From Prevotella sp. (GTDB lineage Bacteria; Bacteroidota; Bacteroidia; Bacteroidales; Bacteroidaceae), in the NCBI GenBank assembly GCA_017619445.1, contig JAFZSI010000060.1, positions 1 to 50,745 of the forward strand: a stretch of 50,745 nt of DNA, written 5' to 3'. Below the pieces are notes generated by a model, which was not told the origin of the DNA, made no database searches, and was given only the letters and a program-made list of their open reading frames with translations. The position numbers and the translations under genes are program-made. Below are positions 930-43,824 of the stretch, piece after piece (position 1 is the stretch's first letter; each line of letters begins with the position of its first letter).

Positions 930-1433
930 TCAGGCCTCAAGTTCGGTCTCGTCAATCACCTCGTCGGCAGGAATATCTATGACGGGCAGTTGGCGGTCGA
1001 TGGCCACATTGAACGAGATGACGGTCTCTGTCCGCTGAAGTCCGAGCGGCTGCAGTTTGTCGTGGATAATGTTGAGCAGGTGGTGATTGTTGAGGGCATA
1101 GATTTTGATGAACATATCGAATCCGCCCGTGGTGTAATGACATTCCACCACCTCGGGGATTTTCTTGAGAGCCTCAACCACTTTGTCGAAGTCACCGGGA
1201 TCTTTCAGGTAAAGACCAATGTATGCACACGTCTCATAGCCGATTTTCTCCGGGTCGATAATGAACTGCGAGCCTTTGATGACTCCGAGATGGGTGAGTT
1301 TCTGAATGCGCTGATGAATGGCGGCTCCGCTGACGCCACAAGAACGGGCCACTTCTAAGAACGCTATTCTTGCGTCCTGAGAAATAAGTCGAAGGATTTT
1401 TTTGTCTAAAGCATCTAAATTGTGATGTGCCAT
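930..1433 (-). CDS. Lrp/AsnC family transcriptional regulator
   Basis: A 167-residue DNA-binding regulator of the feast/famine family. An N-terminal winged helix-turn-helix (about residues 8-60: LDKKILRLISQDARIAFLEVARSCGVSGAAIHQRIQKLTHLGVI) is followed by the RAM/AsnC effector-binding domain (about 70-150), which usually binds an amino acid and builds octamers. The C-terminal tail (IPADEVIDETELEA) is acidic. It is transcribed alone on the minus strand, with a -7 box about 120 bases upstream. The target and ligand cannot be read from sequence; neighbours give no clear hint. Confidence 0.9.
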   Translation of the reverse strand: MAHHNLDALDKKILRLISQDARIAFLEVARSCGVSGAAIHQRIQKLTHLGVIKGSQFIIDPEKIGYETCAYIGLYLKDPGDFDKVVEALKKIPEVVECHYTTGGFDMFIKIYALNNHHLLNIIHDKLQPLGLQRTETVISFNVAIDRQLPVIDIPADEVIDETELEA

Positions 1434-16000: not shown

Positions 16001-18656
16001 GGGTACAAAGAGCGTTGCTTTGGTCTATCACACCACTCTCTATCAGCTTGTTGCCTGCCATAATGGAATACAGGATGTGCGTGTCGGCATCGCTTGAGCC
16101 CACCTGAATGGTGACGGGACTACCATCTGTTGGGAACTCCTCGGCTGTCTGATAGAACCAGTCATGTGTCTCCACACAAGGATGCTTGTCGTCAAGGCTG
16201 AACAAAATGAAGTCGTGTTTGATGGTGTCGCCCTCGCAGATAGCTTCCAGATGGTGTTTGCCCGAAGCGCGCTGCCGCTCGTCTAAGGCCAGTGTGACTG
16301 GCACATTGGTGGGTGCCGTTCCCATGTCCTTGCCATCAATGGTATAATGCACAGTACCATCGATGTTTATGCCCGAGCCATTTTTCAGTGTAAAGGTTAT
16401 GGGCTTGAGCTTCACGGTCTCCGACTTATTGGGTATGTCGCAGCTGAAGAGCGTGGGGCGTGTACCAAGCGGCAGTCGTAATTCGCCCTCATGCGTTTCA
16501 CCGCCAACATCGGTAACCGTCGCATGGGCAATGATGTTGTAGAACACGCTACGTTTAGAGGCCAAGTCGCTCTCAGGCAACGTCATAGGCATTTCCACAT
16601 CAAACTGGCCGTTGGCATCAGTAGTGGCCTCACCCTTCGTGAGTTCCGTGCCCGAACTGCTGTCCGAACGCCACCACCATGCGTAGCTGCGACTCACGGT
16701 GTAGGTAACCTTGGCACCCTGCACAGGAACACCCGCATAGCTTTTGGCTATTCCTTTCACCACAACAGTGTCGCCGGGAAAGTATTTCTGGTTGACTTCA
16801 GGAAACTCCACGAAAAACGTGGGCCGTTTGTATTCTTCCACCCGGATAACCTCCGAGGCCCGCTCGCCAACACCCTGCACCTCAATGATATAAGTGCCGT
16901 TTAGTCCTTTCTGTGGCAATGTGAATGTGGTCTGCGCCACACCGAACTCATCGGTTTCCAGCTCCTTCTGCTCCACATCCTGACCATTGCTGTCAATGAG
17001 CGTCAAGACAATCTTTCTTCCATCGGCAACACTCACATCCGTTCCCTTCTGGTTGTGGTATGTGACGGTTGCCACATGCACATTCTGCCCAGGGCGATAG
17101 ATACGCCTGTCGGTAAAAATGTCTGTACGCGTATAGTCGTTCGGATCGCCATTATAGAAGTATCGCGCCGAAATATCCGACGTTGGAAGATACTTGTCCT
17201 CCTCCGTAAAAGGCACCACCACGTCGGCAATGTCTTTGTCTCGTTTCTCGTACTGGTAGATTATCTCACCGTGCTCATCGCAGTCCAGCACCTTGGTCCA
17301 TCCTTCATCCTTATACCGTTTGTTGCGTATCAGTTTCAGCTTGGCATTGGCCACTCCCTGGCCAGTGGTGGCGTTCACCACGGCATAGCGTATTTTCTGC
17401 TGCGGCTGTTCCTGACAAATCACGGTAAGGTCGCTCACATTCAGGATAGCGCGCATGGGGTCAATCTTTTTGTTGTCGGTTGTTATCTCCACAAGATAAG
17501 CGCCCACGCCACGGCCTGGCAGCACCACGGTGTCCTTGTGCTCATAGTACGGCGCAAAGCCTGGATACTGGCGCGTGTAGGTTTCTGTGGAGCCTTTCAC
17601 AATCAGTTTCTTCAGGGCATTCAGTTCTTTCTTGTCGTTCAGGTTATACCTGTCGTGCTCCAGCGGATTCCAGTTCAGTCGCGACACCTGCACCTTCAGC
17701 AGGCTCACATTACGTAGGTAATGGAATACAAGCTTGCGCTCAACATTGGGACGTAGCACGCTGTTGCCGAAATTCATCCTCACCGTGGGCTGCGTCATGC
17801 TCTTTTGCTCGTTGCGCAGCTTGTTGACGCCAGGCCAGCTGCCCCATCGTTTCAGGGCAACGTTGATGAAGCTGTAGCGCACATCGTCATCCACATCGTA
17901 GTCGTCCATCAGCTCATACTTCTTTAGGGCAACCTCACCGGCCAGCTGCAGGTCACCATAGCGTTCAATGAGCGAGTCGAGCTTTGTGACATACTCCGAC
18001 TTGTTGAAATCCTTCACCCGCCAGTGCTCGTATTTGTATTCACCCTCCAACAGTTTCAGGGCCGTCACGAGCGCACCCTTGCGGTTTCCCGCCTTGTCGT
18101 AATAGTCGTGCAGCAGTTTGTAGTTCTCTGCCTCATACCCCATCACGCTCAGCAGGTCGTTATTGAAAATCTTCGCATCGCGGCCAGCCACCACCAAGGG
18201 CTCCCACAGCGGAGCCTTCTGCGCTGCCAGCAGCTCAGGGTTGGCCAATGACCGTGCGAAATACTCCCGCGCCTTGTCGGGCTTGTTCTTCGACAGCGAG
18301 TAATGGTCGGCATACAGCTTGCCCAACACCGACGCATACACCATGCCCAGCACCTCGTCAGTCCGTGTCGCCTGCTCGTACTCCCTTTCCAGCCCGGCCA
18401 CCACACTTTCCAGCGAGTCGCTCGACAGCAGCACCTCAGCCTGCGCCTTCATCAGCTGAGCCTTCAGCACATGTCCGTAAGCCTTTTCCTCCTTCGCCTG
18501 CCTGACGATGCGTTCCAGAATGCCAATCTCCGTCTTTGGCAAGTCGTTCTTCATCGCCTCCGTCAGTTCATTCCACAACCCCTGCAGCGAGTCGCCGCGC
18601 ATGGGCAGCGGCAGCAGAGCCGCCAATGTTATCAATGTCATCATCACCTTTTTCAT
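13086..18656 (-). CDS. Alpha-2-macroglobulin family protein (MG2 domains), no thioester
   Basis: 1856 residues with signal peptide (MKKVMMTLITLAALLPLPMRG). An N-terminal helical region (about 22-290) precedes macroglobulin-like beta domains: the MG2-type segment with DRRIYRPGQNVHVATVTYHNQKG (about 510-530), the A2M domain with FTLPESVTTWRFIGMAHDKQMNHGL (about 1130-1160) and VQPNMPRFVRVGDEAQIVARLIN, then an alpha-helical terpenoid-cyclase-like domain (about 1300-1620) and a C-terminal receptor-like domain. Where thioester members have CGEQ this protein reads TSENVISQASAFY (about 1318-1332), so it cannot trap proteases covalently. Bacterial members are periplasmic or surface protease inhibitors; here a structural or non-covalent role is inferred. 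Promoter at 18822-18852. Confidence 0.9.
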   Translation of the reverse strand: MKKVMMTLITLAALLPLPMRGDSLQGLWNELTEAMKNDLPKTEIGILERIVRQAKEEKAYGHVLKAQLMKAQAEVLLSSDSLESVVAGLEREYEQATRTDEVLGMVYASVLGKLYADHYSLSKNKPDKAREYFARSLANPELLAAQKAPLWEPLVVAGRDAKIFNNDLLSVMGYEAENYKLLHDYYDKAGNRKGALVTALKLLEGEYKYEHWRVKDFNKSEYVTKLDSLIERYGDLQLAGEVALKKYELMDDYDVDDDVRYSFINVALKRWGSWPGVNKLRNEQKSMTQPTVRMNFGNSVLRPNVERKLVFHYLRNVSLLKVQVSRLNWNPLEHDRYNLNDKKELNALKKLIVKGSTETYTRQYPGFAPYYEHKDTVVLPGRGVGAYLVEITTDNKKIDPMRAILNVSDLTVICQEQPQQKIRYAVVNATTGQGVANAKLKLIRNKRYKDEGWTKVLDCDEHGEIIYQYEKRDKDIADVVVPFTEEDKYLPTSDISARYFYNGDPNDYTRTDIFTDRRIYRPGQNVHVATVTYHNQKGTDVSVADGRKIVLTLIDSNGQDVEQKELETDEFGVAQTTFTLPQKGLNGTYIIEVQGVGERASEVIRVEEYKRPTFFVEFPEVNQKYFPGDTVVVKGIAKSYAGVPVQGAKVTYTVSRSYAWWWRSDSSSGTELTKGEATTDANGQFDVEMPMTLPESDLASKRSVFYNIIAHATVTDVGGETHEGELRLPLGTRPTLFSCDIPNKSETVKLKPITFTLKNGSGINIDGTVHYTIDGKDMGTAPTNVPVTLALDERQRASGKHHLEAICEGDTIKHDFILFSLDDKHPCVETHDWFYQTAEEFPTDGSPVTIQVGSSDADTHILYSIMAGNKLIESGVIDQSNALCTREFAYRQEYGSGLRLTWAWVKEGVFYTHSTTIAKPLPDKRLMVTWQTFRDRLTPGQKEEWTARMEYPDGTPAKAHLIATLYDKSLDQIVSNGWTSGLTLLQNLPSTSWSRVSFRDYSLSGSADYKELTEYELEFSHWDSRLLVLNSWAIINNRMDGYGAFSNSRIMKERMALGAAAPVMMEESSVRVRGSHPMRAMAKNASADMDSVEEAGKPAKSSDQVRENLDVTAMFAPELVSDEQGNVSIRFTLPESVTTWRFIGMAHDKQMNHGLLEGEAVAKKVIMVQPNMPRFVRVGDEAQIVARLINSSEKKVSGKVRLELIDPETDRIVFSQVKSFDAEANSTVPATFSYIPYEDATLYICRIVASGKGFSDGEQHYLPILPNYEMVTNTYPFTQNNPGTVNVNLKKLFAVTDKSNKLTVEYTNNPAWLMVQALPTVSNTTSENVISQASAFYANKLGSFILSQSEAMKKTIELWGQEKGNETSLLSNLNKNQELKNILIDETPWVMDAKKEADQKAQLINFFDSDVLAQKMESNIEQMRKLQNSDGSWSWWPGMTGSKYMTLQVAEILTRLNVMTGEQKATRQMLDKAMDFLGYEIVKSMKDTKKYDKEHKTDLRPSESDIRYLYVASLDGRQLSGEVKEARDYFLKKMEKQTAAFSIYGKAVAAVIFAKNNLTDKAKLYLESMRQYSVYDEEKGRYYDTSKAGYSWFDYRIPTQVSVIEALQMIEPDDLKTVYELQRWLLQSKRTQAWDTPINSVNAVYAFLNGRTSILNEQEPTVLSVNGKPLDLPNGTAGLGYVKTSVTGSDMRTFTAKKTSQGISWGALYAQFKQRTKNVTTSSAGLTVSRRIVSVNGTKVDQNAQQAIPLKVGDKIRIRITIKADRDYDFVQVLDKRAACMEPVNQLSGYHWGYYCSPKDYSTNYYFDCMSKGEHEVETEYYVDRSGKYETGVCTVQCAYSPEYTARDASITLEVK

Positions 18657-18696
18657 ATTTCACAATTCTACTATTTTACTATTTGACAATTTATAA

Positions 18697-18760
18697 TTTT
18701 TTCGCAGAGCTCAAGGAACTCCAATTTCTCCTTTTTTCGCTTTGCTCAAGGAACTCCTCC
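18697..18760. repeat. Dispersed element TTTTTTCGCAGAGCTCAAGG family
   Basis: A full copy at about 18697-18730 (TTTTTTCGCAGAGCTCAAGG then AACTCCAATTT) and a partial second copy at 18735-18756. The same sequence stands at 46278-46312 and in inverse orientation at 47866-47897; a relative with a changed hairpin is at 20440-20465. The rest of 18657-18970 holds ATTGTAAATTG-like repeats, CTCCTTTACT-type simple repeats and the promoter of the alpha-2-macroglobulin operon; no gene seen. Confidence 0.7.
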
Positions 18761-18821
18761 TCTACTCCTTTACTTCTTTACTCCTTCTCTCCTCATGTAG
18801 TTGTCTCCCTTTTCCTCTCCG

Positions 18822-18852
18822 CAAAGGTAAAAAAAATATCCCGTCGCACAAA
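18822..18852 (-). promoter_or_regulatory. Promoter of the alpha-2-macroglobulin/DUF1573 operon
   Basis: Minus strand: TTTG (18849-18852), 19 bases, TACCTTTG (18822-18829). Start of transcription near 18815, leaving a leader of about 160 bases that contains the dispersed GAGTTCCTTGAGC element. Confidence 0.78.
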
Positions 18853-18970
18853 ATAAATTGATTTTTTGATGCAAATATAAAGACTTATTAATGATTGCGA
18901 CTCACTTCAGGCCCCGTCCAGTCCTTCATATACTCTTGCCATTCCCATTACTGCAACCCGATGCGCAGGA

Positions 18971-20293
18971 TTATTGACGAAGTGCCCGGCTGCTGCTTCG
19001 AAACAGCAGCGTCTGCATGAGTCCGCGCAACAGGAGCCAGAGGATGAAGGCGAGCCAGAGGGCATGGTTGCCAAGCAACGGGCGCAGCAGGAAGAAGGCT
19101 ACGAAGAACAGGGCGGTGGCCGCGGCCGCGGAGATGAGCATGGCGCGCGTGGCGGTGATGCCGATGTAGATGCCGTCCCATACAAATGCGGTCAAGCCCG
19201 CCACAGGTATGAGCACTGCCCAGGGGTAATAGTCGGTGGTGGCTGCAATGACGGTGGCGTTGTCGGTGAGCAGACGGAGGAAACGGCTGCCGCCGACACT
19301 ATAGGCAGCTGTGAAAAGGAGCGCGACGGCCGCGCCCCAGAGAAAGACTCGACGCACCACAAGGGCAAAGGCCTGGCGGTTGCGCGCTCCATAGTAGCGT
19401 CCGCCTATGGCCTCGCCCGCAAAGGCGAAACCGTCGAGCACATAAGAATACAGAATGTAGAGCTGCATGAGCAAAGTGTTGACGGAGAGCACAACTGCTC
19501 CCTGACGTGCTCCTGCAGAGGTAAAAAACAAATTGACGGCCACTAAGCATAGGGTGCGCAGAAAGATGTCGCGGTTGACAGTGAAGAAAGAGGAGAGTGA
19601 AAACCCACCCCAACCCTCCCAAAGGGAGGGAGAAGAATTGTCAAATTGAAAATATAGATAGAGCCTTCGCCCGTAATAATGATGCCAGAGCAAGAGCGCG
19701 GCCACGAATCCTGTCCACTGGGCAAGAACGGTGCCGAAGGCCACGCCTTCTATTTTCATCCCGAAGCCAAAGACAAACATCGTGCTCAGCAGAATGTTGA
19801 CCACATTCTGCATGATGGAAATGAACATGGGGATACGGCTGTTCTGCATGCCGATGAACCACCCGTTCAGGCTGTTCATGCCCATCACGGCGGGTGCTCC
19901 CCAAATGCAAATGCTGAAATAGAGGGCAGCCAGAGGAAGGATGTCGGCCGTAGGGTGCATCAGATAAAGGGCCAGCCAGCGTAGTGGCACCTGCAACAAC
20001 AGAAACGCCATGGCGATGCCCACGCCCAGTCCCACGGCAATCAGAAACAGGCGCATCACCTCGGCCAAGTCGCGCCGCCCAAGAGCCTGCGAGGTCATGC
20101 CGCTGGTGCCCATACGCAAGAAACCGAACAGCCAGTAAATGAGGTTGAATATCATTGACCCAACAGCGATGGCCCCGATATACACGGCACTGCCCATGTG
20201 ACCTACTATGGCCACATCAACAAGTCCGAGCAAGGGAACTGTGATGTTAGAAACAATGCTCGGTACAGCAATGCGAAGAATTTTGCGGTTCAT
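18971..20293 (-). CDS. MATE family efflux transporter with a repeat-derived insertion
   Basis: 440 residues, about 12 transmembrane helices in two halves, DinF-like subgroup: MNRKILRIAVPSIVSNITVPLLGLVDVAIVGHMG at the start and EAIGGRYYGARNRQAF in the second half. Members export drugs or cationic compounds in exchange for H+ or Na+. Odd point: residues about 213-234 (FDNSSPSLWEGWGGFSLSS) do not look like MATE sequence. They are encoded by 19590-19655, which contains the hairpin CCCTCCC-aaa-GGGAGGG and an AATTGTCAAATTG repeat, i.e. intergenic-type DNA inserted in frame in the loop between the two halves. The reading frame stays intact, so the protein may still work. Confidence 0.9.
   Translation of the reverse strand: MNRKILRIAVPSIVSNITVPLLGLVDVAIVGHMGSAVYIGAIAVGSMIFNLIYWLFGFLRMGTSGMTSQALGRRDLAEVMRLFLIAVGLGVGIAMAFLLLQVPLRWLALYLMHPTADILPLAALYFSICIWGAPAVMGMNSLNGWFIGMQNSRIPMFISIMQNVVNILLSTMFVFGFGMKIEGVAFGTVLAQWTGFVAALLLWHHYYGRRLYLYFQFDNSSPSLWEGWGGFSLSSFFTVNRDIFLRTLCLVAVNLFFTSAGARQGAVVLSVNTLLMQLYILYSYVLDGFAFAGEAIGGRYYGARNRQAFALVVRRVFLWGAAVALLFTAAYSVGGSRFLRLLTDNATVIAATTDYYPWAVLIPVAGLTAFVWDGIYIGITATRAMLISAAAATALFFVAFFLLRPLLGNHALWLAFILWLLLRGLMQTLLFRSSSRALRQ
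19590..19655. repeat. Intergenic-type repeat inserted inside the MATE gene
   Basis: Contains the perfect hairpin CCCTCCC (19614-19620), loop AAA, GGGAGGG (19624-19630), flanked by ACCCACCCCAA and by AATTGTCAAATTG. Read on the minus strand it yields SPSLWEGWGGF. A multiple of three in length would explain the unbroken frame. Confidence 0.7.
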
Positions 20294-20670
20294 TCGGAGA
20301 AAAGGAGTAAAGGAGTTAAGGAGTAAAGGAGAAAAGGAGTTAGCAGGAGTTAACTGAAGTTTCGGAAGTTATGGAGTTAACTGTAGTTATCGGAAGTTAA
20401 GAGGTCTTCGACCTCTGGAGTTATCGGACAAATGCTTTAATTTCGCAAAGTTCTGGGAACTCCATGGTGTGGGTTTCACCATAACGTTAACTATTACATA
20501 ATCCGTTCCCGCTCAGCCAATTCCAAGCAAGCTTGGTTGACTTTCGCTTACCCACGGATTTGTCCGTTAACTTCAACCGACGGAGTCGGTTTAACTCCCC
20601 TTAACTCCCGATAACTCCTGAGAATAGCTCCAGATAACTCCTGAGAATAACTCCCAAGAATCATGTAAGT
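20294..20670. repeat. Repeat-filled spacer with trinucleotide-loop hairpins
   Basis: No gene seen. 20296-20400 and 20590-20665 hold variants of AGGAGTTA and its complement. Between them lie hairpins: GAGGTC-ttc-GACCTC (20401-20415), ATGGTG with CACCAT (20464-20482), CCAAGC-aa-GCTTGG (20523-20536), AACCGAC-gga-GTCGGTT (20575-20591). Same architecture as the cluster at 5240-5515. One of them probably ends the gene at 20671-22956. Confidence 0.75.
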
Positions 20671-22956
20671 TTAACTTCCCATCAGCAGCCTGCTAACGGC
20701 AGCCGTGTCCTTTGCCCACTCCATGGTGTAGGCCTCGTCGGCATCTTCGGGATTCTCAACCATCTGCAAATGCTGCACCTCGGCCTTCATGCGCAGCACT
20801 TCGCCAATGGTGGTTTTTGACGCAAGGCGCTTGAGATAGGCTTGTACGGTTTCGATGTTAAGCGTCAGGATGGTTTGTCCGCCGAAGGGAATCTCCAACC
20901 AGATAATTTCGCGCTTGGCCACATCAAGCACACCAAACACCAGTCCCTTGGCCAGATTCGACTCACCCACACGCACCTGATGCTGCACCGTGGAGGGGTC
21001 GTAGGCCACACCGGTCTCGTCGGAAACAGTCATAGGATTCTCGCTGCTCATCCATCCCACCACGAGGTTTACCGACAGGTTGCCAGCACTGTAGGCATTG
21101 CTACAGAATGCGACGTAGCGGGCATTGAGACGGGTGAGCGTGGGCAGGTCGAGCTCCACGTATTCAGCCGTTCCTATCTGGTCGGGAATCGCACGTATAT
21201 CGCCAGAATGCTTTGCACCGGCTGGCGCAAGATTGAAATAGGCACATTCCTCCACGCGGTTGTCATAAATGATACGGCAACTCAAATCCATGTCCAAATG
21301 CTGCGCAGGCAGTCCCTTGCCCCATTGCATGAACAGCCTGACGGCATCACCCTCCACCGCGAAACGGGTGCCTTGAAGGGCTGCAGAAGCGTCTTGAACG
21401 GTGGTGCTGCGGTCTCCTATGGCCAGCGGTATGTGATTCAGCTGCGGCTCGATGTAAATGGAGTTGGGGTGTTGGGTGATGGGGTGTTGGGTGTTGAGAA
21501 TTTCGAAATGTCGGCGGAGGGCATCGGTATAGAGTTTGCGCACCCGCCGTTTCATGTTGTCAAGCTGTGCGGGTGTGTAGAGTTTCAGCATACTATTGGC
21601 GGGAATGGTCTTCATGATGCCGCCAAGCGGTCGTGCCACGCGTTCGACGGAGGGGTCGAACCATGTCTCGGCATACATGCCAAGGGTGAACAGCAGCCTC
21701 AGGGGTACTTTCTGTTCATCAGGACTCTGTAACAGCCTTTCGAACGACTCCAAAACCGCGTCGGGACCGAACCATAGCATATTGCTGAACAGGCTGCGGG
21801 CAAAAATGCCGGGCCGCTGGCTGAGCAGGCTCAGCGTTTCGATGGGTTTGCGCGCAAGGCGCGCCTTGTTGACACGTCCCTGCCAAACATCGTAGTCTTG
21901 TCGGTAGTAACGGTCCAGCAGCTCGCTGAGTTTATCAAAGCCGTCTTGCTTGGCAAATTCGGAGAGCCTCAATGCACGAATCATGCGTACCCACATATCG
22001 CGCTTGGCGTGCATCACCTCGCAATCCTTCTCAGGTGTAATGGGCAGTTCGTTGAGCCACGAGGCCACACGGCGGCACCACTTGCGGCTGTATTTCAGTT
22101 TCAGCTTCTCGCGTTTCTGCTCCGCACCGCGCTCGCTTCGGTCGAGCGGTGCAAAGATATGGGCATTGGCATAGCGGGCGTTATTGATGAGCACACGCGG
22201 CTCCACCAACTGCAGTTGGCCCGTATGCTTGTACCACAGATAGCGCAGCACATCGGTGGCTGAGCGGAAAAGGCGATTCGTCTCTTCCTCTTTCCCCAGC
22301 TCTATCAGCGCATCAACGGCCAACACAAGTGTTTCCTTAACGCCAATCTCAACGTCTGCTGGCAGCGGCAAGTGCTTGAGCAATAATTTTAGCGAATCGG
22401 CCTGTGTGGCATCAAGGGCTACAGGTGATGCCAGCAAGTTTTCCAAACACTTTTCCACGTCGGCGCACCGCCAGAGGGTGAGCGTCTTGAGCTTGCTGCC
22501 CTGCCCGCGATATATCTTGGTGGAAGTCTGGAACGGAGCACCGCAGAACGGGCAGCCATTATAGCGCTCCAGGGGGAAAGTCCCGTCGGGAATCAAGTGT
22601 CCGCACGGCAGCCGTGGACCCTGAAAGCCAGCTTCTTCACCGAAGTAGTTGGCAACGAAGGTAATGATATGGTCGATGAACGATTCGCCCGTGGGAACCT
22701 GCCAGCCTTTGACCAACGGTGCCCAGTTGAGGCCTACGCCCATCACCTCGTTCACCACGCCAATTACCTCGGCCTGCAGCGTGGGTGTCATGCCGTTGAG
22801 CGCATGCAGCAGCGGCTCGTTCACCGCATAGCCAACAGAGCGCAGCAGCGACACAAGCTGAAGGGTGGGCTGCGTAATGGTATCTGAGGATTGGAATTCG
22901 TCGGGAACGAAAATTGCGTTTTGTCTAAGCGCGACACGCAAGAAGTCTTTTTCCAT
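20671..22956 (-). CDS. RING-like zinc finger and TerD-like domain protein
   Basis: 761 residues, no signal peptide. A RING-like zinc site lies at about 115-170: LPCGH (Cys118, His120), CPFCGAPF (Cys135, Cys138) and later Cys164 and Cys170. The middle is helical. At about 505-650 a TerD-like beta-sandwich is suggested by VRLFMQWGKGLPAQHLDMDLSC, YFNLAPAGAKHSGDI and YVAFCSNAYSAGNLSVNLVVGWM, which mirror the acidic DxD and SGD calcium-site motifs of tellurium-resistance TerD proteins. This combination resembles the MXAN_6230/SCO0854 RING-domain family linked to Ter-type stress systems. Function unknown; no TerA/B/C/E gene is adjacent. It has a strong promoter and a terminator-like structure in its leader. 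Confidence 0.72.
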   Translation of the reverse strand: MEKDFLRVALRQNAIFVPDEFQSSDTITQPTLQLVSLLRSVGYAVNEPLLHALNGMTPTLQAEVIGVVNEVMGVGLNWAPLVKGWQVPTGESFIDHIITFVANYFGEEAGFQGPRLPCGHLIPDGTFPLERYNGCPFCGAPFQTSTKIYRGQGSKLKTLTLWRCADVEKCLENLLASPVALDATQADSLKLLLKHLPLPADVEIGVKETLVLAVDALIELGKEEETNRLFRSATDVLRYLWYKHTGQLQLVEPRVLINNARYANAHIFAPLDRSERGAEQKREKLKLKYSRKWCRRVASWLNELPITPEKDCEVMHAKRDMWVRMIRALRLSEFAKQDGFDKLSELLDRYYRQDYDVWQGRVNKARLARKPIETLSLLSQRPGIFARSLFSNMLWFGPDAVLESFERLLQSPDEQKVPLRLLFTLGMYAETWFDPSVERVARPLGGIMKTIPANSMLKLYTPAQLDNMKRRVRKLYTDALRRHFEILNTQHPITQHPNSIYIEPQLNHIPLAIGDRSTTVQDASAALQGTRFAVEGDAVRLFMQWGKGLPAQHLDMDLSCRIIYDNRVEECAYFNLAPAGAKHSGDIRAIPDQIGTAEYVELDLPTLTRLNARYVAFCSNAYSAGNLSVNLVVGWMSSENPMTVSDETGVAYDPSTVQHQVRVGESNLAKGLVFGVLDVAKREIIWLEIPFGGQTILTLNIETVQAYLKRLASKTTIGEVLRMKAEVQHLQMVENPEDADEAYTMEWAKDTAAVSRLLMGS

Positions 22957-22973
22957 AGTCGTAAATTGGGTTA

Positions 22974-23060
22974 AAAAGAAAAAAAGGCAATTGGGGAACT
23001 AAAAAGCTGGTCCTACGGACCACCTGAAACATTGAAGTAAGTTCCCCTTGGCCTTTTTAT
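22974..23060 (-). promoter_or_regulatory. Structured leader with terminator-like hairpin before the RING/TerD gene
   Basis: On the minus strand AAAAAGGC pairs with GCCTTTTT (23051-23058 with 22981-22988) and GGGGAAC with GTTCCCC (23041-23047 with 22993-22999), separated by a small internal loop. An inner hairpin TGGTCC-tac-GGACCA sits at 23008-23022. A run of T follows (22974-22988). The structure ends about 18 bases before the start codon at 22956, within the transcript that begins near 23084. It can be an attenuator, or the end of a short RNA. Confidence 0.65.
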
Positions 23061-23090
23061 GAAAAAGAATTACTGTTTTGTTTATCGATG

Positions 23091-23122
23091 CAAAGGTACG
23101 AATAAGTGAGCAAAAATGCAAA
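23091..23122 (-). promoter_or_regulatory. Promoter of the RING/TerD gene
   Basis: Minus strand: TTTG (23119-23122), 20 bases containing TTGCTCACTTATTCG, TACCTTTG (23091-23098). The region 23091-23175 matches the promoter region before the TPP riboswitch (43540-43640) almost base by base. Confidence 0.82.
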
Positions 23123-23331
23123 TTTTTTTGCATTTTTTCGAACGTGAGTACCTTCGACAGGGTCAAAAGTATGAAATAATTTGTTACCTGCAAAATAATT
23201 CCGCACTTTTTTGCTTTTCCTCTTCATCACACAGAGGTACAGAGTTATCAGAGTGCCGTTAGTTCTCTTTAACCTCCGTTCCTCTGTATGAGGAAATAGT
23301 AAATTGTAAATTGTCAAATTGTCAATTATCA

Positions 23332-24510
23332 TCACCGCGCCATGTAGTAGATGGCCTTCATGTCGGCAGAGTGAATCTTCTCTATGGAGCCGAGCACAAT
23401 GGTGTCGTCGCGGCTGCACTTGCGCACCATGATGTCTATCTCCTCTTCAGAAATCTCACGACCAATGAGCTCGCGGATATTGGTAGGCATTCCTATCTGG
23501 CGATAGAAAGTCTCGATGGCCTCAATGCCTCTCAAGGCTGTGCCCTCGGGGTCACTGAAATCGTTGGTTACTCCCATTACATTCACGGCAAACTGCACAA
23601 AACGGCTCACATGCTTTGGCATGACATAACGCGCCCAGCTGCCCCAAATGGCAGCAAGTCCGGCACCGTGGGTAACGCCAAACAGCGCACTCAACTCATG
23701 CTCCAGACGATGGGTGGCAAAATCTTTCTCACCGCCACACTCTGTCAGGTTATTGTGCGACAGCGAACCGGCCCACATTATCTGAGCACGGTTGCGGTAG
23801 TCCTCGGGATTCTTCAGCACGGCCAGGGCACTGTCCTTGACGGTGCGCATCAGAGCCTCGCTAATGGCGTCGGTGAGGGTCATGTCGTCGATACGGCAGA
23901 AATAGCGCTCCATGGTGTGCATCATGATGTCGGTTGCACCAGCGGCCGTCTGGTAGGGCGGCAGGGTGAACGTGCGCTCAGGGTTCATGATGGCAAATTT
24001 GCAACGGCATAGGTTGCTGTTGCAGCCGCGTTTATTCAGGTCCTCGTCACGGGTGATGACACACGAGTCGCTCATCTCGCTGCCAGCCGCAGGAATGGTC
24101 AGGATACAGCCTATAGGAACACAGGCCAGCGGCACCTTGCCGCACCAGAAATCCCACACGTCGCCATCGTAGGGGATGCCGTAGCCGATGGCCTTCGACG
24201 AGTCGATGACGCTGCCGCCGCCAACAGCCAGGATGAAGTCAACACCCTCGTCGCGGCACAGTTTTATGCCCTCGTTCACTTTTGACAGCAACGGGTTGGG
24301 CACCACGCCGCCAAGTTCCACGTAAGCGATCTCGGCCTCCTTGAGCATCTTCTCCACTTTGTCAAGCAAGCCTGAGCGGCGCGCACTACCGCCTCCATAA
24401 TGGACCAGCACCTTCGTACCGCCATATTTCTTTATCAACTGAGCCAGCTGTTCTTCCGACTGCCGGCCAAATACCACTTCCGTAGGTGAATAGAAATTGA
24501 AGTCTTTCAT
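23332..24510 (-). CDS. Iron-containing alcohol dehydrogenase (BdhA/YqhD type)
   Basis: 392 residues from ATG 24510; the open frame extends to 24579, but the promoter -7 box at 24546-24553 lies inside that extension, so 24510 is the start. NAD(P)H-dependent reduction of aldehydes to alcohols. Visible: MKDFNFYSPTEVVFG, VLVHYGGGSARRSGLLDKV, the cofactor segment FILAVGGGSVIDSSKAIG, metal ligands in AGATDIMMHTMERYF (Asp and His) and in THRLEHELSALFGVTHGAGLAAIWG (two His). Similar to butanol dehydrogenases and YqhD. Stands alone in its transcription unit. Confidence 0.93.
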   Translation of the reverse strand: MKDFNFYSPTEVVFGRQSEEQLAQLIKKYGGTKVLVHYGGGSARRSGLLDKVEKMLKEAEIAYVELGGVVPNPLLSKVNEGIKLCRDEGVDFILAVGGGSVIDSSKAIGYGIPYDGDVWDFWCGKVPLACVPIGCILTIPAAGSEMSDSCVITRDEDLNKRGCNSNLCRCKFAIMNPERTFTLPPYQTAAGATDIMMHTMERYFCRIDDMTLTDAISEALMRTVKDSALAVLKNPEDYRNRAQIMWAGSLSHNNLTECGGEKDFATHRLEHELSALFGVTHGAGLAAIWGSWARYVMPKHVSRFVQFAVNVMGVTNDFSDPEGTALRGIEAIETFYRQIGMPTNIRELIGREISEEEIDIMVRKCSRDDTIVLGSIEKIHSADMKAIYYMAR

Positions 24511-24545
24511 AATAATTGTTTCGGTTGGTTTTTCTTTGATGGTGA

Positions 24546-24553
24546 CAAAGGTA
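24546..24553 (-). promoter_or_regulatory. -7 box of the alcohol dehydrogenase gene
   Basis: Minus-strand TACCTTTG. The -33 region is TATG at 24577-24580 with 23-base spacing, not canonical. Start of transcription near 24539, about 29 bases before ATG 24510. Confidence 0.6.
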
Positions 24554-24555
24554 CG

Positions 24556-24753
24556 AAAAATCTGATTAAGTGAGAGCATAGAAAACTTGTTTTCTTTGCC
24601 GAACGTGAAGATTTTATCTAAAAATCTGATTAAGCGAGGGCAAAGAATGCTAGTTTTCTTTGCCGAACGTGAAGATTTTTATCAAAAAATCTGATTAAGC
24701 GAGGGCAAAGAATGCTAGTTTTCTTTGCCGAACGTGAAGATTTTATCTAAAAA
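24556..24753. repeat. Minisatellite of 64-65 bp units, three copies
   Basis: The word AATCTGATTAAG starts at 24559, 24623 and 24688 (spacings 64 and 65). Each unit continues with CGAGGGCAAAGAATGC, TAGTTTTCTTTGCCG and AACGTGAAGATTTT; the first unit is the most diverged. A partial fourth unit runs into the PIG-L gene end. On the minus strand each unit carries TTTGCCCTCGCTTAATCAG, which resembles the -33 half of the promoter cassette at 23091 and 43608. No gene seen in 24511-24742. Confidence 0.85.
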
Positions 24754-26182
24754 GTGAGCGAAAAGCCAAAAGGAAAACGTGTTTTTCTTCTGTGAAATCG
24801 GTGAAATCTGTGGTTTGGCTGTTTCGTTTTACCATTCTGACAAATGCCTTAAAACTGTACTCTGTGAGGAATGCAAACAGTTTGTTGCGAGTGGTGGCGT
24901 GATTTTCATATTTTGTGAAGGGCACATCATCCCACGGGAAAACATTGCCTGATTCATAACACTCAATCTCATTGATGGTGAGATTGCTGAATGAAGCGAT
25001 TTGCATTGTCAGCCTTTCTGCAGGAACAGGAGGCAACTGGATTATCACAACATTGTTTTGAGGACATTGGAACTCTGTTTCAAAACCATTGTTCAATCTG
25101 ATTGTGAGAGAGCCCAAAGTTGAATTGCAATTCTGGTATATCACAATTCGTGATAGGGATACTGGTTTTGGAAACTGAAGGGCAATGGTTGGCTGCTTGT
25201 CGTGCAGAGCAGGACACCACCCTTTTGAGCAGTTGCACAAATCATCGGCAATTGTTTTTTCAGGAACAGCCAGCATGAAGTCGTTTAGATAGTGTGCGTC
25301 TCCCGATGATACTTCCATTTGGGCCGACAAAGCCAGGTTGAAAGGGCTTCTATACCAGTAACAGGAATCGGGATTTGCAAGTCTGGGGAAATGATTCAGT
25401 GCACAATAACCATATTTGTAATCGTTCTGTGTTTTCTGCGCACACAACGCTTTGAATATTGGATTGTTCCACAGTTTCAGCGTCTGTGTTTTTTCTCCGT
25501 TTTTTATCTGAATGCGCTGATTCCAGTCGTGGGGAAAACATTTTTCCCTGATGGTTTCCCCTTTCTTTAGCAATATTCTTGTGGGTTTTATCGGCGTATC
25601 GAAGAAATCGTATGGGCCAAGCCAAACTCCATTATACGCAAAACCCTTGAGGATGACGGGGCGGTAACTGCTGTTGCTTTTCAGAATCTCGCCCATACAC
25701 TCATCAAACAGCAGCGAGATGCACCTGTGGTCAGGATGTTTGTCTAAGTCAACACAAACCACAAGGTCGGCCTGCTTTGTCAATATTACGTCGCGGATGT
25801 CATTCTTGAAACTCTCTCGTGTATAAGGATTATGTCTTCCCGTGCGGATAAAGCAAAACTCATTTTCATCTCCCGCACAATATGTTTCCTTGTATCCAGC
25901 CCGTGACTCAACAACTACGTTGCTGACAGCATCATAAATATGGGTGCCAACATAACCATCGCCATACCCTAAGAAAACCAACTCGTCATATTTAAAAATC
26001 TTTTGTGTCCGCTTAGCTTCATAATACCGTTTGGTTGTCTTCTCATTTAAAAAATCGCCGTTGGTGCAAATCACAACAGTCGTATATACTCCGTTTTCAC
26101 GAAGTATGTCAAACAAACCTCCTGCCAGATTTATCTCGTCATCAGGATGGGGCACAATGATTAAAGCACTCTTACAACGCAT
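24743..26182 (-). CDS. PIG-L family deacetylase with C-terminal beta-sandwich domain
   Basis: 479 residues. The LmbE/PIG-L zinc amidase domain (about 1-230) has the motif PHPDDE at 11-16 and the second site VDLDKHPDHRCISLLFDE (about 145-162). Such enzymes remove N-acetyl groups from sugars such as GlcNAc conjugates. Residues about 260-420 look like a galactose-binding/discoidin-type sandwich (IALQFPKPVSLSRIVIYQNCNSTLGSLTIRLNN). The last 20 or so residues (QTTDFTDFTEEKHVFLLAF) are read from an intergenic repeat. No signal peptide. Base composition is clearly more A+T-rich than in the flanking core genes, suggesting acquisition. Promoter at 26194-26225 leaves almost no leader. Confidence 0.87.
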   Translation of the reverse strand: MRCKSALIIVPHPDDEINLAGGLFDILRENGVYTTVVICTNGDFLNEKTTKRYYEAKRTQKIFKYDELVFLGYGDGYVGTHIYDAVSNVVVESRAGYKETYCAGDENEFCFIRTGRHNPYTRESFKNDIRDVILTKQADLVVCVDLDKHPDHRCISLLFDECMGEILKSNSSYRPVILKGFAYNGVWLGPYDFFDTPIKPTRILLKKGETIREKCFPHDWNQRIQIKNGEKTQTLKLWNNPIFKALCAQKTQNDYKYGYCALNHFPRLANPDSCYWYRSPFNLALSAQMEVSSGDAHYLNDFMLAVPEKTIADDLCNCSKGWCPALHDKQPTIALQFPKPVSLSRIVIYQNCNSTLGSLTIRLNNGFETEFQCPQNNVVIIQLPPVPAERLTMQIASFSNLTINEIECYESGNVFPWDDVPFTKYENHATTRNKLFAFLTEYSFKAFVRMVKRNSQTTDFTDFTEEKHVFLLAFRSLFR

Positions 26183-26193
26183 AATTCACAGGG

Positions 26194-26225
26194 CAAAGAT
26201 ACAACTATGCGAGCAAAAAACCAAA
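26194..26225 (-). promoter_or_regulatory. Promoter of the PIG-L gene
   Basis: Minus strand: TTTG (26222-26225), 20 bases including TTGCTCGCATAGTTG, TATCTTTG (26194-26201). Transcription should start near 26187, only about 5 bases before the ATG at 26182, so the message would be nearly leaderless. Confidence 0.78.
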
Positions 26226-26296
26226 AGAAAAAAGCCAATGGTGCATTTTACTCAAAAAAAACCAGGAAATTTGATGGTAATATCGGCATTTATTCT

Positions 26297-26304
26297 TATT
26301 TTTG
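26297..26304 (+). promoter_or_regulatory. -7 box of the AAA+ gene
   Basis: TATTTTTG matches TAnnTTTG; TTTG at 26270-26273 is 23 bases upstream. Start near 26311, leader about 49 bases to the ATG at 26360. Confidence 0.5.
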
Positions 26305-26359
26305 CCGCCACGTAGGCTCTTTTAAATTTAGATAATAACAACATTAATAGTTTTGAAAT

Positions 26360-28591
26360 ATGGATGCAATTTTGATTGGCTTTATGGCTGGTGTTTTGTT
26401 CTTAGTGATATATTCTAAAATGGAGAAGAGAAAGAAGAAGGAGTTGGAAATGAAGAAGATCAAGGAATATAATGAATTCAAGAAGTGGGCAGATAAGTAT
26501 TATGAAGAACATTTAGAAAGTGAGCACACAAATGAGAAAAAGAAGCTCAACAGAATGATTTCTGAGAGGGATGACTTGATAGAAAAAATGGAAGAATTAG
26601 AAGACGACGACGATTCCATTGATGACAACACGATGCTTATTTCCGAGAATGCTTTTGAAGATATGTATCGTCAGTTGTCGGAAACTTACAATTTGATTAG
26701 GGATATTTGCAGGAAGAGCGATTTTCAAAACTTTATTCTTGGGATAAGTAAGGAGGGTAATGATAAAATGGATGACAGCAAAAAAATGTTTGAAGGTCTG
26801 AAGTTTTTCATTGGCCAGGATATTCTAAGGAACTATGAGCGTCTGGGCCACAAATACTACATCAATGATGAAAGAGGGAAAAAGTGTTGCGACATAGACT
26901 TCGACACCCCTGAAGGACAACTGTTGTCCTGCATCGTTTTGCAATTTTTGAGATTAGACGACAACCAACGTTACACATGGGAAGAATTTAAAACGATTAT
27001 TGTCAGAAAAGAAGAGTGTTGCAAGAAAATACGAAGCCTATCCGTAGAGGCATTGAACTCATTGGCCAACGCTGAAGTGAAAGCAACTGCAAGTGATGGC
27101 CTGGATGATTTTGCTTTTTGCATGATTTTTCATGATTACAATCAGGAGTACGAGACCAATTATAGAAAGAAGATGCTCCGCATCGCAACCATTATTGCGA
27201 ATGCAGACAATAAATTGACCGATACGGAGAGCCAATGGCTGGACAGCATTATGAATGTTGGTGTGACGAAAGATTCAAAAGAAAATGAGCATGAAGTAGA
27301 AAGCCCTGACGTTGAGTTGAACAGCATGATTGGGCTTAGCAGGGTGAAGAACGAGATTAATACCCTGTGCAACTTTGTTATCATGAAGAAAAAGCGCGAG
27401 AAAGAAGGGCTGAAATTGCCCAATATTTCTTTTCATTGCGTGTTCACAGGCAATCCGGGTACAGGAAAGACAACTGTCGCCAGGCTGTTAGCCGGCATAT
27501 ATAAAGATTTAGGAGTACTGAAAAAAGGGCATCTCGTGGAAACCGACCGTTCTGGACTTGTGGCAGAATATGTGGGACAAACGGCAATCAAGACAAACAA
27601 AATCATTGATAGTGCATTAGACGGTGTCTTGTTTATTGACGAAGCCTATACTTTGGCTAATGGTGGAACGAACGACTATGGTCCGGAAGCTATTGCTACT
27701 CTGCTGAAACGCATGGAAGACGACCGTGACCGTCTGGTGGTGATACTGGCTGGCTATACCGTGGAAATAGAACAGTTCATCAATTCTAATCCGGGCTTGC
27801 GCTCGCGGTTCAATCGTTATATTCACTTTGACGACTATACGGCAGAAGAACTATACGAGATATTTTGCCTTCAGGTGAAGAAAAGCGATTACACATTGGC
27901 AGAAGATGCATCGGAATCCCTGAAGGAGCATTTGAAGAATGTCGTGGAAAACAAGCCAAAAGATTTTGGCAATGCCCGATATGTGCGTAATCTGTTTGAG
28001 AAGGCCATTGAAGCACAATGCAACCGTTTGGCTTTAAAGGAAGAACTGACAAAACAAGACCTGACGCTGATTACGAAGGATGACATTTTTTCGCTTACAC
28101 TCAACAACACGTCTCAAGAATCTTGGAACCAGCAGGACAAGAAACAGAGCGTTACTCTCAATCACCTATCATATATAGTAGCAAAACGGGAAACTGAAAC
28201 AAACCAAGAGGCTGACGAAAAAGACAACACTATTCAAACTCTAAGCAAAGAAGTAAAAGATTTGGAGAAGTATAACAACAGAATTGACAAACCCACGCCC
28301 AGCTCTTACTCAACTTATGACGAAGAAACTATTGAAATATCCTACACCATATTATGCCGGGAGGATTTAGGTGAGAACACTTTTGACATGGATGTCAAGG
28401 AACGCGACTATGACTGGTTGACAGATAAGGAAGAAGAAGGAGAATATCTGGATTCCGACTTTATATCTGAGAACCGCCGAGGTTTGCACAAACGCATCGT
28501 GAAGGCCATTCGCCAGAACATGGAAGAAGAATTGTTTGAAGAGACATACTCTTTGGTTGACGATGAGATAGAATACACAATAACGGTCTGA
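26360..28591 (+). CDS. Membrane-anchored CbbX/SpoVK-like AAA+ ATPase
   Basis: 743 residues. One N-terminal membrane helix (about 3-21, AILIGFMAGVLFLVIYS), then a charged coiled-coil (22-85). Residues about 95-300 are helical; KMLRIATIIANADNKLTDTESQWLDSIM resembles the end of a TerB-like fold. The AAA+ module (about 322-580) is of the CbbX/SpoVK/EccA group: VELNSMIGLSRVKNEINTL, Walker A GNPGTGKTT (about 363-371), Walker B GVLFIDEAYTL (about 421-431), sensor and arginine-finger region LAGYTVEIEQFINSNPGLRSRFNRYIHF. The final 150 residues are acidic with alternating Glu/Asp and Tyr and no known domain. Likely remodels a partner at the inner membrane; partner unknown. A+T-rich like the divergent PIG-L gene. 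Confidence 0.85.
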   Translation: MDAILIGFMAGVLFLVIYSKMEKRKKKELEMKKIKEYNEFKKWADKYYEEHLESEHTNEKKKLNRMISERDDLIEKMEELEDDDDSIDDNTMLISENAFEDMYRQLSETYNLIRDICRKSDFQNFILGISKEGNDKMDDSKKMFEGLKFFIGQDILRNYERLGHKYYINDERGKKCCDIDFDTPEGQLLSCIVLQFLRLDDNQRYTWEEFKTIIVRKEECCKKIRSLSVEALNSLANAEVKATASDGLDDFAFCMIFHDYNQEYETNYRKKMLRIATIIANADNKLTDTESQWLDSIMNVGVTKDSKENEHEVESPDVELNSMIGLSRVKNEINTLCNFVIMKKKREKEGLKLPNISFHCVFTGNPGTGKTTVARLLAGIYKDLGVLKKGHLVETDRSGLVAEYVGQTAIKTNKIIDSALDGVLFIDEAYTLANGGTNDYGPEAIATLLKRMEDDRDRLVVILAGYTVEIEQFINSNPGLRSRFNRYIHFDDYTAEELYEIFCLQVKKSDYTLAEDASESLKEHLKNVVENKPKDFGNARYVRNLFEKAIEAQCNRLALKEELTKQDLTLITKDDIFSLTLNNTSQESWNQQDKKQSVTLNHLSYIVAKRETETNQEADEKDNTIQTLSKEVKDLEKYNNRIDKPTPSSYSTYDEETIEISYTILCREDLGENTFDMDVKERDYDWLTDKEEEGEYLDSDFISENRRGLHKRIVKAIRQNMEEELFEETYSLVDDEIEYTITV

Positions 28592-43565: not shown

Positions 43566-43607
43566 ACTGTCGTCGAAGGTACTATCGTTCGGAAAATTGC
43601 AAATAAA

Positions 43608-43639
43608 TTTGCATTTTCGCTCACTTAATCGTACCTTTG
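43608..43639 (+). promoter_or_regulatory. Main promoter P2 of the thiamine operon
   Basis: TTTG (43608-43611), 20 bases containing TTCGCTCACTTAATCG, TACCTTTG (43632-43639). Transcription would start near 43646, ten bases before the riboswitch. The spacer of P1 and P2 is nearly the same sequence. Confidence 0.82.
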
Positions 43640-43655
43640 CAGCGGTTTACAGAAT

Positions 43656-43735
43656 GTAGGCTAAGGGGTGCCCGATGGTTCGGGCTGAGATTATACCCTC
43701 AAACCTGATCCGGGTAATGCCGGCGTAGGGATTTG
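43656..43735 (+). promoter_or_regulatory. TPP riboswitch (THI element)
   Basis: The conserved core is clear: AAGGGGTGCCCGATGG, GGGCTGAGATTATACCC, AACCTGATCCGGGTAATG and CCGGCGTAGGGA. Thiamine diphosphate binding is expected to turn down the downstream TonB receptor-pnuT-thiN genes. The expression platform is not obvious; repeats of the ATTGACAATT type follow, and the ATG is about 90 bases further. Confidence 0.95.
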
Positions 43736-43824
43736 ACAATTGATAATTGACGATTGACAATTTGAGATTCACAAGTTTTCTCTTTCCCCTTCATTAGCAA
43801 CAAAATGACAATTGAGAATTGAGA

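Follow-up and report, generated by a model that had tools for sequence, protein, structure and literature searches.

A structured RNA between a promoter and a RING–TerD gene

The window analysed here, a stretch of 50,745 nucleotides from Prevotella sp. (assembly GCA_017619445.1, contig JAFZSI010000060.1), carries on its reverse strand a gene for a protein with RING, helical-repeat and TerD-like parts (the RING–TerD gene), which is preceded by a promoter and, between promoter and start codon, by a stable stem (Table 1). Sequence comparison suggests that this stem is probably one copy of a small structured RNA that works together with the neighboring RING–TerD protein. The RNA family that accompanies RING–TerD proteins is undescribed in the open-licence literature searched.

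Table 1. Features of the RNA and the adjacent gene in the window, with the basis of each assignment
Feature	Position	Strand	Basis or remark
RING, helical-repeat, TerD-like protein, 761 aa	20671..22956	-	distant relative of the MXAN_6230/SCO0854 family
ATG of the RING–TerD gene	22956-22954	-	read from sequence
T tract with one C, possible terminator	22973..22985	-	not constant across the family
Structured RNA module, stand-alone hairpin form	22981..23058	-	R1 63.7 bits, E 9.2e-15; R2 67.4 bits, E 1.4e-14
P1, 3' strand, GCCTTTTT, runs into the T tract	22981..22988	-	fold prediction
Conserved internal loop, 3' side: AATT	22989..22992	-	alignments
P2, 3' strand, AGTTCCCC	22993..23000	-	fold prediction; model-fitted alignment of 143 distinct copies
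Variable apical hairpin, TGGTCC-GTA-GGACCA	23008..23022	-	fold prediction; varies between copies
Fixed loop sequence TACTTC (TTACTTC with the preceding T of P2)	23034..23039	-	alignment A2
P2, 5' strand, GGGGAACT, 8 bp	23040..23047	-	fold prediction; model-fitted alignment of 143 distinct copies
Conserved internal loop, 5' side: CAA in the window, CCAA in most seed relatives	23048..23050	-	alignments
P1, 5' strand, AAAAAGGC, 8 pairs	23051..23058	-	fold prediction and covarying pairs
Bacteroidota-type promoter before the RNA, TTTG-20-TACCTTTG	23091..23122	-	read from sequence
-7 box, TACCTTTG	23098-23091	-	read from sequence
-33 box, TTTG	23122-23119	-	followed by a 20-nt spacer

A preliminary description of this site had reported a promoter followed by a full intrinsic terminator, made of a two-part stem (8 + 7 pairs) with an inner 6-bp hairpin and a T run, and had offered either premature termination (a new leader or riboswitch type) or the release of a roughly 100-base small RNA as its meaning. 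The promoter is confirmed and is of the type usual in Bacteroidota. The stretch 22974-23060 folds as described (-31.7 kcal/mol in RNAfold, z -4.44, 0/200 shuffles as good), and the folding energy of the longer stretch 22970-23085 gives z -3.95, again with 0/200 shuffles as good. The inner hairpin is present, 23022-23017 pairing with 23013-23008 in six pairs to which the predicted fold adds two outer ones, and the stem differs from the earlier account only in that its second part, P2, has 8 pairs instead of 7. With promoter, stem, hairpin and T tract all found and a fold z of -4.44, the observation was correct as seen. The small RNA, whose transcript would probably extend from about 23085 to 22974, is the option that the evidence favors, so that the earlier interpretation as a whole is partly supported. 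The terminator is a different matter: the stem and the T run (22985-22973) exist, but a consensus terminator scan of positions 18000-27000 found 11 candidates vs 10.3 ± 3.8 expected, which is not above chance, and the T tract is inconstant in the family. The case therefore rests on folding energy and conservation, not on resemblance to a terminator, and a terminator-only reading was rejected.

Conservation and covariation of the RNA family

The family core consists of P1, a fixed internal loop (CCAA/AATT), an 8-bp P2, a fixed TTACTTC and a variable cap. The corresponding pattern AAGGnCCAAG-P2-TTACTTC ... AATTnCC was found 5' of the RING–TerD gene in 3 of the 4 other gene-bearing genomes of the genus, three times in tandem in genome G001; it is not in the DNA before the gene of G009. 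Across 398 genomes of the genus a sequence pattern of this kind has 12 sites in 10 genomes, all 10 of which contain the gene, and the backward-pattern control gave 0 sites. TTACTTC is invariant across the 11 rows of alignment A2, to which the window copy does not belong, and the sequence of the apical hairpin is not conserved between copies. In the window itself, this site is the only match of RNA model R2 up to E 10 over all 50,745 bases.

Covariation was evaluated on 11 seed copies aligned without structure. Pairing holds in 93.3% of their cells vs 37-48% when one strand is slid, and 45 cells are changed on both sides of a pair vs 14.5 ± 2.8 after shuffling. For 143 distinct copies, in an alignment fitted to the model, the latter comparison is 584 vs 148; here P2 is paired in 95.7% of cells, and all 8 of its pairs show changes on both sides. 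The preliminary description had asked for conservation and covariation of the stem. Both are found, and this half of its own refutation test is thereby passed.

To describe the family beyond the genus, 80 homologous loci were used, which are the best 80 of 402 relatives, and the frequencies given for them are accordingly those of the closer homologues. Among the groups represented are Prevotellaceae, Bacteroides, Dysgonomonas, Flavobacterium, Aquimarina, Hymenobacter, Chitinophaga, Niastella and Microscilla; 29 of these loci, together with the window protein, make up the alignment used for the protein model. RNA model R1 has 145 matches in them up to E 10, 135 of which are at E ≤ 0.01. All except one (144/145) are on the strand of the gene and at most 1.4 kb upstream of it, the exception being the weakest match (E 9.1).

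No Rfam 15 family fits the stand-alone RNA. At gathering score there is no Rfam match at the window copy, and the scan of loci L001 and L010-L013 gave none up to E 1 at the copies of L010, L012 and L013. Known RNA families were thus rejected as candidates: the matches obtained at gathering score were thiamine pyrophosphate (TPP) riboswitch, tRNA, transfer-messenger RNA (tmRNA) and permuted tmRNA, those up to E 1 were microRNA families and one archaeal small RNA (sRNA) family, and none of either set lies over a stand-alone copy.

Co-occurrence with the gene, arrays and orphan copies

The gene was found in 5 of 60 relatives searched, the genome of the window included. Among 36 genomes of the genus, the RNA occurs in 5/5 with the gene vs 0/31 without it (Fisher 2.7e-6), and it is present in 13/13 gene-bearing genomes tested. 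Four of 295 genomes of the order have the gene; three of these were matched by R1 under strict filters, and the fourth (G583) gave three RNA matches when its own locus was searched.

At least one copy lies upstream of the gene in 74/80 homologous loci and at least two in 40/80 (39 at E ≤ 0.01). The arrays reach five matches, and in several loci the repeats stand behind one promoter. Bacteroides xylanisolvens XB1A and B. cellulosilyticus DSM 14838 each have two copies upstream of the gene. A TANNTTTG box precedes the first array copy by at most 120 nt in 36/73 loci vs 188/3700 random windows, the latter not being confined to intergenic DNA. Other copies are separated from the gene. Genomes G009, G692, G693 and G694 have a gene locus with neither an R1 nor an R2 match and one match elsewhere in the genome; the orphan of G009 is preceded by a -7 box of its own, 6 bases before the match, and those of G692 and G693 lie 42-43 bases behind a tRNA-Met gene (L155 273-460 and L156 1501-1687, reverse strand). 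G262 likewise has no match at the gene locus and one elsewhere, with only 215 bases of contig upstream of its gene, and G094 has one copy upstream of the gene and a second 79 kb away. Such orphans favor an RNA acting in trans over a cis switch.

These placements bear on premature termination, the first option of the preliminary description. In that reading the stem would be a cis-acting attenuator or riboswitch that stops transcription before the gene unless an alternative fold forms. As in such elements, a structured stretch with a T tract lies between promoter and start codon, in the order promoter, stem and T tract; the 3' end is T-rich in 34/66 gene-proximal copies, and the last copy ends at most 60 nt from the start of the gene's match in 66/74 loci with a match. 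Arrays of up to five matches, orphans, copies after the gene and copies embedded in tRNA-like RNAs (see below) set the family apart from them, as does the strong covariation, which extends to copies at all positions in the arrays. Neither an exclusive position in cis and upstream nor a terminator in the members, as expected of riboswitches, is found, given the orphans and downstream copies and a T-rich end in 34/66 proximal and 25/78 other copies. An antiterminator partner was not seen by eye, and no systematic search for one was made. Premature termination is thus disfavored by the arrays in 40/80 loci, the orphans, the copies after the gene and the inconstant T end; together, the orphans in four genomes and the copies after the gene in phage Weasels2 make a cis switch hardly tenable, and we regard it as very unlikely.

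The gene-proximal copy may nonetheless have a cis effect on its own mRNA, given how close the last copy lies to the gene. Such a dual role, in which a trans-acting RNA would be combined with a proximal copy through which the protein binds its own mRNA and shuts off its synthesis, would account for the position of that copy along with the orphans and arrays. Several genomes lack a detected proximal copy, however, and the copies in Vibrio, Niallia and Weasels2 stand after the gene, which leaves the dual role unlikely in our judgment.

tRNA-like members of the arrays

In many arrays, the hairpin copies are interspersed with RNAs of about 120 nt that have an acceptor stem of 6-7 bp along with the D arm and T arm of a tRNA. 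Four array members in the scanned loci obtain Rfam tRNA scores of 34-52 bits over 112-123 nt, three of them 43-52 bits. In place of an anticodon arm they contain the module in circularly permuted form, in the order P2 5' strand, AATTnCC, loop, GGnCAA, P2 3' strand and TACTTC, with P2 again of 8 bp. A rule for such molecules returned 33 candidates of at least 100 nt in 25 loci, of which 4 resisted parsing and the others gave 27 distinct modules; molecules of 100-135 nt number 23, in 19/80 loci. In the 27 modules, the P2 strands pair at 82% of positions, compared to 59.6 ± 2.8% (maximum 68% in 2000 shuffles) when strands were swapped between molecules and the best partner was chosen anew, and 58.8% when the swap kept the partner of the true strand. 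Seven or eight P2 pairs are present in 15/27 modules. The window copy has no tRNA-like part, and a search for the tRNA-like pattern in G695, G597 and G009 found none. Inspection by eye also showed, between two RNA copies in B. xylanisolvens XB1A (L092 5501-5990), a short tRNA-like RNA that lacks the anticodon arm.

A variant module beside distant homologues and in phages

Using tblastn against plasmids and phages, relatives of the gene were found in Streptomyces, Vibrio, Variovorax, Niallia, Deinococcus and phages. Several of these distant homologues are adjoined by a TTCCTTC version of the module (loop TCCTTC). A fixed rule for it, written after examples had been seen, places a pair of copies after the gene in each of the two Vibrio loci read and in Niallia, where they follow the matched part of an unannotated gene, and before the gene one copy in 3/4 Streptomyces plasmids and two in phage MT835874. 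Sites with TCCTTC have the module in 11/25 cases near the gene vs 0/51 elsewhere in the same 12 loci (Fisher 7.8e-7), sites that are not independent since the Vibrio loci are related and so are the Streptomyces plasmids. The 14/25 near-gene sites that fail the rule include both Variovorax and one of the four Streptomyces, two of the four TTCCTTC sites of MT835874 and all sites in phages RpAliso and RcXuper. Two more RpAliso copies were picked out by eye, with P2 paired at 5/8 and 6/7 positions; the R2 match of this phage has E 0.036, and because of this weak pairing and E value RpAliso is only suggestive.

In Rhodococcus phage Weasels2, four tandem R2 matches (E 7.8e-7, 1.1e-6, 1.1e-4 and 0.089) lie just downstream of the gene. 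One copy (L176 4839-4969), inspected by eye, is of the hairpin type, and its cap encloses a tRNA body whose parts are permuted: the T arm and 3' acceptor strand come first, followed by the 5' strand and the D arm, with P2 paired at 8/8 and the acceptor at 7/7 positions. Phage MT835874 (L169 710-2100) has a tRNA cluster with a tmRNA, followed by the four TTCCTTC sites and the RING–TerD relative. A scan of viral contigs with pattern A6 gave 12 matches, none of which was confirmed.

The RING–TerD protein

The window protein matches NF041916, the MXAN_6230/SCO0854 RING family, at E 5.2e-39 and 134 bits; four proteins score 134-161 bits against it, below its cut-off of 600 bits, and are thus relatives and not members. 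For the MXAN_6230/SCO0854 family, no RNA partner was found in open-licence papers. A Prok-RING_4 match in the window protein (E 7.7e-5, 23 bits) is under the cut-off of 27. The AlphaFold2 model (mean predicted local distance difference test score 78.8) has a long helical stretch and a C-terminal β domain. In a comparison of this model with PDB folds, the first and third places are taken by the TerD structures 3ibz (E 1.5e-3) and 2qz7 (E 0.03), with a Foldseek probability of 1.00; no fold match reaches E ≤ 0.001, and a Pfam search of five proteins gave no TerD match up to E 5.

RNA repeats before a protein gene, standing behind one promoter in several loci, would also be expected of a type III-like toxin-antitoxin system in which the RNA is the antitoxin and the protein the toxin. 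The protein matched no toxin family in Pfam, NCBIfam or PADLOC searches, orphan copies exist and some of the repeats are tRNA-like, and we give this alternative next to no credence.

RNA repair genes in the neighborhood

Pfam was scanned with 93/139 selected neighbor proteins, namely 70/72 downstream and 23/67 upstream, the latter nearly all on the strand of the gene; 3/142 neighbors of over 900 aa had been left out of the selection. Due to this uneven choice, the following counts do not stem from an even sample. RtcB was found in 4/93 neighbors (L074, L082, L101 and L104), each time as the next open reading frame upstream of the array and on the strand of the gene, an RNase T/Rv2179c-like exonuclease in 4/93 and RlaP in 2/93. 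Identities were assigned by name for L074, L089 and L088 and through BLAST cluster and family count for the others. Near the distant homologues, rtcR lies three genes from the relative in Variovorax, on the other strand; an RNA ligase family gene lies about 3 kb downstream in Vibrio; a tRNA nucleotidyltransferase or nucleotidyl transferase is next or next but one in RpAliso and RcXuper; and Weasels2 has RtcB about 3 kb downstream, along with tRNAs. Repair-gene neighbors thus occur in a minority of loci. By eye, the DNA just before the array of L022 (about 1300-1400, reverse strand, genome G095) resembles the C-terminal end of RtcB as in L074.

The presence of RtcB beside an array (in those 4/93 proteins), of the module at the anticodon arm and of permuted tRNA order in Weasels2 would also suit a splicing or processing signal, where the module in a tRNA precursor would be cut and its ends joined by RtcB or another ligase. 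In contrast, the window copy and other hairpin copies have no recognized tRNA parts, RtcB is missing from 36/36 genomes of the genus, and the single 4x4 internal loop differs from the bulge-helix-bulge motif; we hold this explanation to be quite improbable.

A putative ribonucleoprotein with a possible role in tRNA damage

What had been described as a leader in the window would be a short structured RNA transcribed from a promoter of its own. Its core module (P1, CCAA/AATT, P2 and TTACTTC) would probably be the landing site of the protein encoded by the adjacent gene, which is presumed to bind the RNA and to form with it a ribonucleoprotein acting in trans. The cap varies, from a plain or branched loop as in the window to a whole tRNA-like body in which the module takes the place of the anticodon arm. 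The complex might be comparable to Ro60 and its tRNA-like Y RNAs and might sense, decoy or repair tRNAs that have been cut. The arrays, together with the RtcB, RlaP, RtcR, RNA ligase, tRNA nucleotidyltransferase and exonuclease genes beside some of them, point to these roles, and we rate the chance that tRNA damage or repair is the purpose of the pair as slightly short of even.

To our knowledge, no bacterial protein with tRNA-mimicking RNAs of its own has been studied well apart from Ro60, whose RNAs are the Y RNAs. The tRNA-like part seems to be joined to the module otherwise than in Y RNA. The account of the Salmonella Ro60 operon (PMC7790460) lists RtcB with Rsr and a Y RNA that bears a tRNA-like domain. 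The cast of rsr-yrlBA-rtcBA is similar to that of the gene neighborhoods described above, and a tRNA-like module is shared, here in 19/80 loci and not in the window copy. The systems differ in that the module here occupies the anticodon arm of a complete tRNA-like body and forms arrays, and in that the partner has RING and TerD-like domains and RtcB is absent from the genus sample of the window. The window protein has no TROVE match, the RNA does not match any Y RNA family of Rfam, and a Ro60-like protein was not supported by the comparisons made. The RNA–protein pair may be analogous to a Ro–Y RNA particle in its working, yet it lacks the features by which Ro60 and Y RNA are defined.

Several observations weigh against a partnership of RNA and protein, or against its link to tRNA repair. 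The genome of the window has no tRNA-like member near the gene. RtcB occurs in 0/36 genus genomes tested, that of the window included, and is hence not a required partner. Genome G695 has the gene without an RNA copy in searches with the model and the tRNA-like pattern, and G597 has a weak RNA match (E 8.6e-4) without a gene being found. The last copy sits near the gene as a cis element would, and the frequencies over the 80 loci represent the closer homologues. A conserved protein operon was rejected, the neighbor strands being near random (42/72 downstream and 40/67 upstream on the strand of the gene). As for Ro60, a TROVE gene occurs in only 3/13 gene-bearing genomes (G094, G262 and G379), to which the window's does not belong, and the 50 PDB fold matches listed, out of 661, do not include Ro60.

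A wider and rather doubtful proposal is that RING–TerD proteins with arrays of tRNA-mimicking guard RNAs constitute a new RNA-based stress or defence system. Its fixed docking module would sit at the place of the anticodon arm, anticodon cleavage or tRNA loss would alter the complex and trigger TerD/RING signaling, RtcB-type repair would join in some lineages, and phages would carry their own version. If the pairing is real, Ro60 would be joined by another protein family, seemingly unrelated to it, that has tRNA-mimicking RNAs of its own; it would become directly testable why cells maintain tRNA look-alikes beside repair enzymes, and the RING–TerD family would gain a molecular handle. The range would cover many Bacteroidota and, in the variant form found next to distant homologues, extend to Pseudomonadota, Bacillota, Actinomycetota and phages.

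A repeated promoter element in the genome of the window

A long promoter element of the AAATAAATTTGCATTTTCGCTCACTTAATCGTACCTTTGCA type is repeated in genome G000, where 46 matches at E 0.001 or less were obtained, including window positions 23089-23130 (reverse strand). The query comprised the promoter stretch and the RNA, and nearly all matches cover the promoter part. Seven copies were read as sequence; several copies are in tandem and several lie before unrelated genes. One copy stands directly 5' of a TPP riboswitch (window 43600-43749, forward strand, 71.5 bits).
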